A stretch of DNA of 5,539 nucleotides, from assembly GCA_003153075.1 (NCBI GenBank), contig PMBW01000346.1:978-6516 (forward strand), written 5' to 3'. The translations under genes and the position numbers were made by a program. Shown one piece after another: positions 3,712-5,539 of this stretch. Positions within the stretch are counted from its first letter, which is position 1; every line of letters starts with the position of its first letter. The notes under the pieces are model-generated. The model saw nothing but the letters and a program-made list of their open reading frames with translations. It did no database searches and had not been told where the DNA came from. Origin of the DNA: Dehalococcoidia bacterium. GTDB taxonomy: Bacteria > Chloroflexota > Dehalococcoidia > Dehalococcoidales > Fen-1064.

Positions 3712-4221
3712 TCAGAGAAAACGTTCGAAACGTTCTTTTTTCGCTTTGCAAACGGGGCAGATTTCCGGCGGGCCGTCCCTTGCGCACAGGTAACCGCACA
3801 CTTTACAGCGCCATACCGGATAAGGCAGGTTGGTAAGATTTGCAGATACCATCTTAGCCGCAGCCTTCCTCTGTTCCGGTGGAGGACGCCGCTCCGGTAT
3901 CGATGTCAATTCCTGTTGGCCTTTGGCGACCGCCTCGGCGACATACAGCCCTCAGTAACAGGCCCCGTGTTCTACTACATCGGCATCCCGGTAATCACAG
4001 GGACAGATGATATCGATATCTTCCGCTTTTACGCCTACCGCCAGACGGCAGGGGCAAGCCTGGTACCCATATCTATTTTCATTGGTCAGCAAACCCTGGG
4101 CCAGCGATTTTGTAAACTCAATATCAGGATTGAGGTAATAACCGCCGGAACGAGCATCTTTCTGCAGCTGCTCGTAAAGCTTGTCGATCTGTTCCTGGGT
4201 GACGGCCGGTTGTTCGTTCAT
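3712..4221 (-). CDS. Ferredoxin:disulfide reductase with rubredoxin domain; probable selenoprotein (in-frame TGA at codon 90)
   Basis: Predicted 169-residue [4Fe-4S] disulfide reductase if the TGA at 3952-3954 is read as selenocysteine. Residues 1-103 match the catalytic subunit of ferredoxin:thioredoxin reductase: ACPCR (Cys56, Cys58), [11 protein letters not shown] (Cys73, Cys75) and EHGACY-U-GLY (Cys88, Sec90). By analogy with plant-type FTR, Cys56, 73, 75 and 88 bind the cluster, and Cys58 with residue 90 is the redox pair. [11 protein letters not shown] linker (107-116) leads to a rubredoxin-like domain, WRCKVCGY (137-144) and [14 protein letters not shown] (153-166), with all four iron cysteines. 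This FTR-plus-rubredoxin layout is known from the ferredoxin:disulfide reductase of Methanosarcina acetivorans, where rubredoxin replaces the FTR variable subunit. The ATG at 4221 overlaps the glutaredoxin stop (ATGA), so translation is coupled. The gene ends with TGA then TAA. Without readthrough it would give an 89-residue enzyme lacking one active-site residue and the rubredoxin domain. Confidence 0.82.
3914..3943 (-). promoter_or_regulatory. Candidate bacterial SECIS hairpin after the in-frame TGA
   Basis: Counting from the nucleotide after TGA, positions 9-38 can fold as TGT/ACA, a small internal loop, GCC/GGC, a GA/AAA internal loop, GGC/GCC, and a GGUC apical loop at positions 21-24. 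A G and U in a small apical loop about 20 nt after UGA is the hallmark of SelB-binding hairpins such as that of E. coli fdhF. The stems here are short (3 bp each), and CGCC/GGCG just upstream could compete, so this is a candidate rather than a firm call. Confidence 0.45.
3952..3954 (-). other. In-frame TGA, probable selenocysteine codon
   Basis: The frame is exactly conserved across the codon: the ATG at 4221 and the rubredoxin domain ending at 3712 share it. The TGA stands where the family has the second cysteine of its terminal C-x-C motif. Cysteine codons TGC and TGT differ from TGA by one base, so a sequencing or nonsense change is the competing explanation. Confidence 0.7.
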
Positions 4222-4499
4222 TTGCCGAAACTATCCCTGATTTTACTTTCCTGGAACCCGACGATGCTATTGGCGTTGTCAATTATTATAGTGGGGAAAG
4301 ACATGCTGGGATTCCATTTCTGGATGATCACCATCGCGTCCTTTTTTTCGGCATCGGTCATCAAATCAACATCATCGAAGTAGTATTCCACTCCTAAATC
4401 TTCCAGCAGTTTTTTAGTTTTTTTACACCAGGGACAGGTGCTCAGCGCGTATAAAACGATATGCCCTTTGTTCTTGCCTGCCACGTGTTTTAACGCCAT
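4218..4499 (-). CDS. Glutaredoxin-like protein (CPWC)
   Basis: A small cytosolic thiol-disulfide oxidoreductase of 93 residues with the glutaredoxin/NrdH order of elements. It has a short basic N-terminus, strand HIVLYALS (13-20), active site TCPWC (21-25; Cys22 the likely nucleophile, Cys25 the resolving residue), helix KKTKKLLEDLG (26-36), second strand EYYFDDVD (38-45), the cis-proline site SFPTIII (67-73), and a GF turn (81-82) where glutaredoxins often have GG. The dithiol motif means it can cycle through an internal disulfide. Its ATG at 4499 has AGGAG at 4507-4511 with a 7-nt spacer. Its TGA overlaps the ATG of the FTR-type reductase by ATGA. This suggests that the reductase, rather than glutathione or an NADPH flavoenzyme, reduces it. 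The physiological target cannot be read from the sequence; ribonucleotide reductase or peroxidases are possible. Confidence 0.88.
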   Translation of the reverse strand: MALKHVAGKNKGHIVLYALSTCPWCKKTKKLLEDLGVEYYFDDVDLMTDAEKKDAMVIIQKWNPSMSFPTIIIDNANSIVGFQESKIRDSFGK

Positions 4500-4709: not shown

Positions 4710-5539
4710 TTATAAACCGATCAGTCTTACTACGGTAGCCGCGCCAACACTTTGGGTACATTGCTTATTGTTGGAGCGGTGTAAATCCAAACGAGCCCTT
4801 CCCACACTACGAATCCACCGGCCGATCGGGACGAGATCAGCATAAGGTATTTTCAGATATTGTCCAAGGCACCATAAAGCATTATTGTCAGCCAGGTCGT
4901 TACTGACTTCACCGGTAGTTTCCAACCGAGTCAGGAATCCCGTAATAAAATCTTCCAGCGTTCTCCCTGTTTCGCCCAGGTAAGGCGGCAACTGCAGCGC
5001 TTGCCTGTATTCATTGGGAGAAAATCCGATTTCCAGCTGCTTGCGGTCCGCCAATACCTTCCCCTGACCCGGCTCCGGCATGACCGGGGAACTTTCTATC
5101 AGCCCGACCGACCAGCCGGGAAAAGCGCAAATATGATAGTTGCTGATGACCTCCCGTTTGGTTTGCCCCCGGTGATTTTTGGTATATTCCTGCGGAAAAT
5201 AGACAAGCTCTCCTCTCTCAACCGCCTGTCTTAAGGTTTCCCACATCCAGACCTGTTTGTCTTTATTGACACGAACGGGGACCAGCGGGTCAGCGGGAGA
5301 ATGCCTGGTTTGGAAAATCTTGCCTGCGGCCGCGTGTTTAGTGACGGCCGTTTTCAACAGGTCAACCAGTGTGAGCAGCGGCATCGCCATGGGTGTTAAT
5401 TCCATACAGTCAAAACCCTGCGGCACTTTTCTATTTATAAGCTCGCGGTTGTGAATAAATAGTTCCGCAACCTGTTCCCCTGTTGGGATCGGATATTCTG
5501 TGCCGTCTGTTCCTATTATGCAGGGGCTGCCCGATTTTG
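4710..5539 (-). CDS. Unrecognised protein, C-terminal part (5' end outside window)
   Basis: Family not recognised. The reading frame is open without a stop from the right window edge to TAA at 4710, giving 275 visible residues. An internal GTG at 5426 has no ribosome site, and the residues before it (including PCIIGTDGTEYPIP and EQVAELFIHNRELI) look like protein, so the true start is probably beyond the window. The visible part appears soluble and mixed alpha/beta. It has no signal peptide, no transmembrane segment and no metal-binding cysteine cluster. It is rich in W, Y and P motifs such as VWMWETLRQAVERGELVYFPQEY and has a middle stretch CAFPGWSVGLIESSPVMPEPGQG. The PGQGKVLADRKQLEIG and GRTLEDFITGFLTRLE stretches would make good search seeds. 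It is separated from the redox operon by about 210 bp, so a functional link is not implied. Confidence 0.6.
   Translation of the reverse strand, partial: KSGSPCIIGTDGTEYPIPTGEQVAELFIHNRELINRKVPQGFDCMELTPMAMPLLTLVDLLKTAVTKHAAAGKIFQTRHSPADPLVPVRVNKDKQVWMWETLRQAVERGELVYFPQEYTKNHRGQTKREVISNYHICAFPGWSVGLIESSPVMPEPGQGKVLADRKQLEIGFSPNEYRQALQLPPYLGETGRTLEDFITGFLTRLETTGEVSNDLADNNALWCLGQYLKIPYADLVPIGRWIRSVGRARLDLHRSNNKQCTQSVGAATVVRLIGL

Follow-up and report, generated by a model that had tools for sequence, protein, structure and literature searches.

The stretch of DNA analysed here (5,539 nucleotides from a Dehalococcoidia bacterium, hereafter the window) carries on its minus strand a glutaredoxin-like gene (grx) followed directly by a frame that runs from the ATG at 4221 to the TGA at 3712-3714, and whose sole internal stop is the TGA at 3952-3954, codon 90 (Table 1). 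Translation confirmed the original prediction of a single frame broken only by this TGA, as well as its reading of the CPC, CPC and CxC motifs as complete save for a last cysteine given as TGA: the motif order in the frame is C56-P-C58, C73-P-C75, C88-Y-U90, [18 protein letters not shown], and a CxxC...CxxC rubredoxin domain which, as had also been stated, continues in frame. With U at position 90, residues 12-104 match FeThRed_B (PF02943) at 81.5 bits against a Pfam cut-off of 22, with the features of an FTR catalytic subunit in which U replaces the last C, and residues 137-166 match RUBY_RBDX at 52.6 bits (cut-off 26.5). As judged by sequence comparison, the gene very probably encodes a selenocysteine (Sec)-containing ferredoxin:disulfide reductase (FDR), with UGA 90 read as Sec. 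From the roles known in the FTR family, C58 is presumed to be the redox partner of U90 and C56 a cluster ligand. Three further minus-strand frames were observed in the window: a single 408-residue frame at 1475-2701 in which a VTT (DedA-type) membrane domain and a methyltransferase domain are fused, the VTT part being kept in genomes G380, G379 and G382; a 276-residue frame at 673-1503 with no Pfam or NCBIfam match, alpha/beta hydrolase-like by eye (GASQG); and a 275-residue frame at 4710-5537, open at the window edge and with no Pfam match, of which the 238-residue form with a GTG start has no NCBIfam match.

Table 1. Predicted features of the FDR locus, in window coordinates
Feature	Position	Strand	Basis
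Predicted Sec-FDR gene, ferredoxin:disulfide reductase, 169 residues with U90	3712..4221	-	Translation with TGA as U, Pfam, PDB 4TPU
In-frame TGA, predicted to be read as selenocysteine 90, second redox-cysteine position (C-Y-U)	3952..3954	-	Cys in relatives, TGA in 11 further genomes
FTR catalytic domain FeThRed_B, residues 12-104, holding C56/C58, C73/C75, C88 and U90	3910..4188	-	Pfam
First CPC motif, residues 56-58	4048..4056	-	Sequence; roles known from the FTR family
Second CPC motif, residues 73-75, presumed [4Fe-4S] ligands	3997..4005	-	Sequence; role known from the FTR family
Rubredoxin-like domain, residues 137-166, 3' of the TGA	3724..3813	-	Pfam
Putative SECIS, weak in this copy; spans nt 15-36, numbering from the U of UGA, and has GGUC at nt 24-27	3919..3940	-	Register fold -8.1 kcal/mol
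Glutaredoxin-like gene (CPWC) immediately upstream of the FDR; its TGA stop and the FDR start codon share ATGA	4218..4499	-	PF00462, 48.1 bits

The closest solved protein is PDB 4TPU (E 7.1e-65, query residues 8-169), filed as 'Rubredoxin' and taken here to be the FDR of Methanosarcina acetivorans. The near full-length match and the shared domain order, with the FTR catalytic domain followed by the rubredoxin domain, mark the protein of the window, by sequence, as a predicted rubredoxin-fused FDR of the Methanosarcina type; the six FTR cysteine positions align, but 4TPU has Cys at the column where the window has TGA. The catalytic chain of plant and cyanobacterial FTR (PF02943) has the same domain and motif pattern, but lacks both the rubredoxin domain and Sec; in plants it is paired with a variable chain. 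The full-length relative P0003 is identical to the window protein at 67 of 89 residues before the TGA and, since it remains identical at 64 of 79 after it, the stretch 3' of the TGA is real coding sequence.

Column 90 is occupied by Cys in 80 of 80 relatives in genome_contigs (the best 80 of 463 confirmed loci; TGC in 51, TGT in 29), so that the UGA of the window lies in frame at the Cys column of its homologues with coding sequence beyond, as in a selenoprotein. Cys is also found there in every full-length database relative listed (120, out of 8000 scored); these cannot serve as a test for TGA, since a called gene would not run through a stop at this position. Where DNA was read, TGA was found exactly at column 90, in an aligned FDR frame without any other stop, in 11 further genomes (G380, G385, G386, G114, G225, G1163, G1192, G1055, G1183, G1173 and G1134): two among the 21 matching of 301 genomes in the phylum of G012, five among the 34 matching of 156 in the order of G114 (both of the former included), and eight among the 51 matching in a 393-genome draw from the class of G114, two of these already counted and six new. 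The checks proposed with the original prediction thus came out in its favour: Cys aligns with the predicted Sec at this column, other homologues bear the TGA, and their sequence downstream is conserved and not degraded. No TGA was seen at column 90 in the phylum of G022 (48 of 297 genomes matching), in which nine of the 48 have a stop inside the match; column 90 is Cys in all of the six inspected individually (G720, G757, G751, G686 and G633, which are the five with TGA, and G610 with TAG), the stop in the other three, G750, G607 and G583, being TAG. Six matches in the 249 genomes of the phylum of G036 included none with TGA, and no FDR relatives were found in viral_contigs or plasmids. Weak matches with stops, at 25-38% identity, occur in G023 and elsewhere, among them a distant FTR-like one at G023:C122:3512-3832 on the plus strand (25% identity, residues 15-123, one TGA inside). 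The database protein P0002 (218 residues) shows a second rubredoxin-like stretch behind the first, and many other listed relatives are of similar length.

When the 89-residue stub that ends before the TGA was used as query, 636 proteins were matched and 120 of the 120 listed end in C-Y or C-F just before column 90. A second search with one of these stubs (P0161) matched 1200 proteins and, with both lists combined, all 165 distinct listed proteins end in the same way, an observation that concerns the protein ends of the listed matches and not stop codons or the DNA beyond. These database stubs probably stop short since the selenocysteine codon was taken for a stop, in which case many entries listed as stubs, mostly of 88-89 residues, would probably be about 165-170 residues long.

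Selection on either side of the TGA was compared in six pairs of genes (codons 1-89 versus codons 91-169). The G380 copy (L089) is 87% identical to the window FDR and syntenic with it (VTT-methyltransferase, nudix, FDR, grx), the neighbours being 85% (VTT-methyltransferase gene, over 202 residues to the locus edge), 80% (nudix) and 90% (grx) identical; for this pair dN/dS was 0.080/0.696 before the TGA and 0.053/0.694 after it. Values before and after were 0.133/0.503 and 0.129/0.670 for L155 versus L156, 0.068/2.399 and 0.087/0.725 for L151 versus L152, 0.130/1.165 and 0.171/0.792 for L151 versus L154, and 0.170/0.904 and 0.190/1.234 for the window versus L090, the Cys copy of G379; for L102 versus L105, in which dS was saturated, dN was 0.167 before and 0.272 after. 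The part 3' of the TGA, rubredoxin domain included, is therefore under purifying selection, with dN there somewhat above that upstream in some pairs.

These data bear on the simplest alternative, namely that the TGA is a premature stop produced by recent gene decay or by an assembly error that gave TGA for TGC or TGT. Only one base separates TGA from either Cys codon, and the SECIS of the window itself is weak, as such a stop would have it; nevertheless, comparison of the sequences makes error or decay very unlikely, because the same TGA recurs in 11 other genomes, including the syntenic copy of G380, and dN/dS is equally low past the TGA (a ratio of about 0.08 against G380), while every one of the 165 listed stub calls ends at column 90. 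It could also be supposed that UGA is mainly a real stop, so that the usual product is a functional FTR stub of 89 residues and read-through is occasional, and inefficient Sec insertion does commonly leave some termination product. Such a stub would however be devoid of the second redox cysteine, and purifying selection acts on what lies past the TGA, rubredoxin included, which renders a functional stub decidedly improbable. A full-length protein with Sec at position 90 is the preferred reading.

Genes for Sec insertion were sought in the genomes concerned. Among the 11 TGA genomes selB was over its cut-off in eight, tRNA-Sec scored at least 68 bits in nine and selA was present in ten, with at least one of these in 11 of 11. 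Neither selA nor selB exceeds its cut-off in G386, and in G380 and G1163 no tRNA-Sec exceeds the threshold, gaps that may reflect incomplete genomes; the contig of G380 that carries selA and selB holds no tRNA-Sec at gathering score. The tRNA-Sec scores cover no more than 90-96 tRNA candidates per genome, and hits near 47-55 bits were taken for other tRNAs. Two c-di-GMP-II riboswitch matches in tandem were observed on that same selA-selB contig of G380 (L149 16390-16855). G386 has a tRNA-Sec of 69 bits and a formate dehydrogenase-N frame of 1248 bits that reads through three TGAs, one at ARLUHS, which we take to be a Sec site, with the other two placed ahead of the probable start and at the probable end. 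In G1055, the genome in which selD was examined, about 10.4 kb of contig C65 (L178 526-10918) hold selB, selD with an in-frame TGA of its own (U18, presumably a Sec site), yedF, a member of the cysteine-desulfurase family, one other gene, selA, a pair of genes that look CoA-transferase-like by eye, and grx-FDR; the end of selA lies about 1.8 kb before grx, and tRNA-Sec is on another contig. Presence of Sec machinery alone is weak evidence, because 36 of the 54 non-TGA FDR genomes tested, a subset of the matching genomes, also have selB over cut-off or a tRNA-Sec of at least 63 bits; the remaining 18 have neither. selA was found in none of nine Cys genomes, mostly close relatives, that were chosen knowing that selB and tRNA-Sec were absent. 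Two full-length selB matches (contigs C150 and C50) were noted in G1325, a Cys-FDR genome.

The frame would stay open whichever residue the TGA gave, and the codon might accordingly specify another amino acid, by a variant code or a near-cognate tRNA. A changed genetic code is argued against because UGA also stops grx and the FDR itself in the same operon; moreover, the TGA replaces a catalytic Cys, the classic signature of Sec, Sec machinery is found in 11 of 11 TGA relatives, and both selD of G1055 and formate dehydrogenase-N of G386 carry in-frame TGA at presumed Sec sites. Insertion of an amino acid other than Sec is considered extremely improbable. The Sec-FDR of the original prediction, with its TGA at a catalytic Cys, is in this way largely supported by the recurring TGA, by the purifying selection beyond it and by the Sec machinery of the TGA relatives.

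The SECIS evidence is fair for the TGA group and poor for the window. In the window, the 50 nt past the UGA fold no better than shuffled sequences (z 0.15), and longer stretches give z from -0.13 to 0.63. In the first six TGA genes the hairpin at nt 15-36 has a median of -11.9 versus -1.4 in 103 distinct Cys sequences (p 2.5e-5), with GGUC or GGUU at nt 24-27 in five of the six versus 13 of 103; two Cys genes, L074 and L075, have both a SECIS-like loop and a stem. When this register, chosen from those six genes, was applied to six new TGA genes, the test failed (p 0.22; GGUY in 0 of 6 versus 2 of 18), and these six later genes share another hairpin, GGCCGU-CGUGA-AYGGYC, which was seen after the fact. 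A published bSECIS model, coded from the legend of Fig 2 in the available text of PMC13188914, was passed by 10 of 12 TGA genes (all except L089 and L155, which fall short of its energy threshold) versus 32 of 121 Cys genes (p 1.7e-4, relatedness not corrected). As coded from that legend, its thresholds accommodate the best hairpin of the window (-11.6 kcal/mol), which 28 of 200 synonymous recodings equal in strength; recodings as strong numbered 5-10 of 200 for L102, L105, L107, L116, L154 and L156, 21-42 for L151, L152, L153 and L155, and 89 for L089 of G380. Rfam models run over the window gave nothing near gathering score (best E 2.2).

The history of Sec and Cys at this position was followed on a tree of 87 FDRs (12 TGA, 75 Cys), to which the first 80 loci contributed only L001-L040, and from which duplicates, short matches and two rows containing other stops had been removed. 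Five changes of the TGA label are required on this tree, of which strongly supported branches force at least two, and a single clade for all TGA rows gave a borderline p-AU of 0.047. The pair formed by the window and G380 is joined by the Cys copy of G379 with support 99/84; in G379 neither selB nor tRNA-Sec reaches its cut-off, and selA is absent. Together, the tree and G379 fit a replacement of Sec by Cys, or of Cys by Sec, that goes with the presence or absence of the machinery.

Sec has been predicted in FTR sequences before. The available text of PMC2398784 (GOS, 2008) reports it for two of them, one with two Sec, and in the accessible portions of PMC9312934 and PMC13188914 FTR is listed with the motif CxU, the latter also giving NF041072; FDR is mentioned in what is available of PMC6262447, whose reference list carries a title consistent with the M. 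acetivorans assignment of 4TPU made above. The word "rubredoxin" is absent from the available text of PMC9312934 and PMC13188914. As far as these partial sources describe them, the GOS Sec-FTRs and NF041072 (FtrB_double_U) share with the window the FTR catalytic domain and Sec at redox cysteine positions, but the window has one Sec only, C58 being a Cys codon, and is fused to rubredoxin. Membership of NF041072 was rejected, the window scoring 55.4 bits against a cut-off of 160 and having one Sec and not two; seven of the 11 TGA relatives, tested against the same cut-off, scored 44.7-54.8 bits. The TGA copies occur in genomes grouped with Dehalococcoidales or Dehalococcoidia records, whereas the GOS Sec-FTRs, in the text available, are marine reads. 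No earlier report of a rubredoxin-fused Sec-FDR was found in open PMC papers. What appears to be new here is the rubredoxin-fused form with one Sec, at a position that by analogy with the FTR structure would face the [4Fe-4S] cluster.

In plant-type FTR, the role of exposed nucleophile falls to the second Cys of the first CPC, and the last Cys of CxC lies at the cluster. We infer the cluster chemistry, the partner and Sec insertion in this organism, with catalytic roles assigned by analogy with that enzyme. UGA codon 90 would be decoded as Sec by SelB and tRNA-Sec, giving a protein with a [4Fe-4S] cluster on C56, C73, C75 and C88 beside a C58/U90 selenenylsulfide, and with the rubredoxin domain at its C-terminal end. 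Electrons would reach the cluster one at a time from ferredoxin or from the rubredoxin domain; because of the plant-type map, C58 would be the residue that attacks the disulfide of the co-encoded glutaredoxin, with U90 meanwhile held near the cluster, and a second electron would then bring about the release of the reduced partner. A grx-like gene lies directly upstream of the FDR in 11 of 11 TGA relatives, for which reason glutaredoxin is the likely substrate or redox partner, and the enzyme probably passes electrons from ferredoxin to this glutaredoxin-like protein.

Taken together, we lean slightly towards the view that the gene belongs to a widespread and as yet unnamed selenoprotein family of FDRs fused to rubredoxin and carrying a single Sec at the redox position that faces the cluster, whose selenolate would serve as a transient ligand or electron relay of the [4Fe-4S] cluster, and in which Sec and Cys would have replaced one another repeatedly, in parallel with gain or loss of the Sec machinery. 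If true, this would add the rubredoxin-fused FDR branch to the few Sec-FTRs predicted so far and would place selenium directly beside a catalytic Fe-S cluster, where it could be visible to EPR or Mossbauer spectroscopy; close Sec/Cys pairs, such as those of G380 and G379, offer material for asking why Sec is kept.
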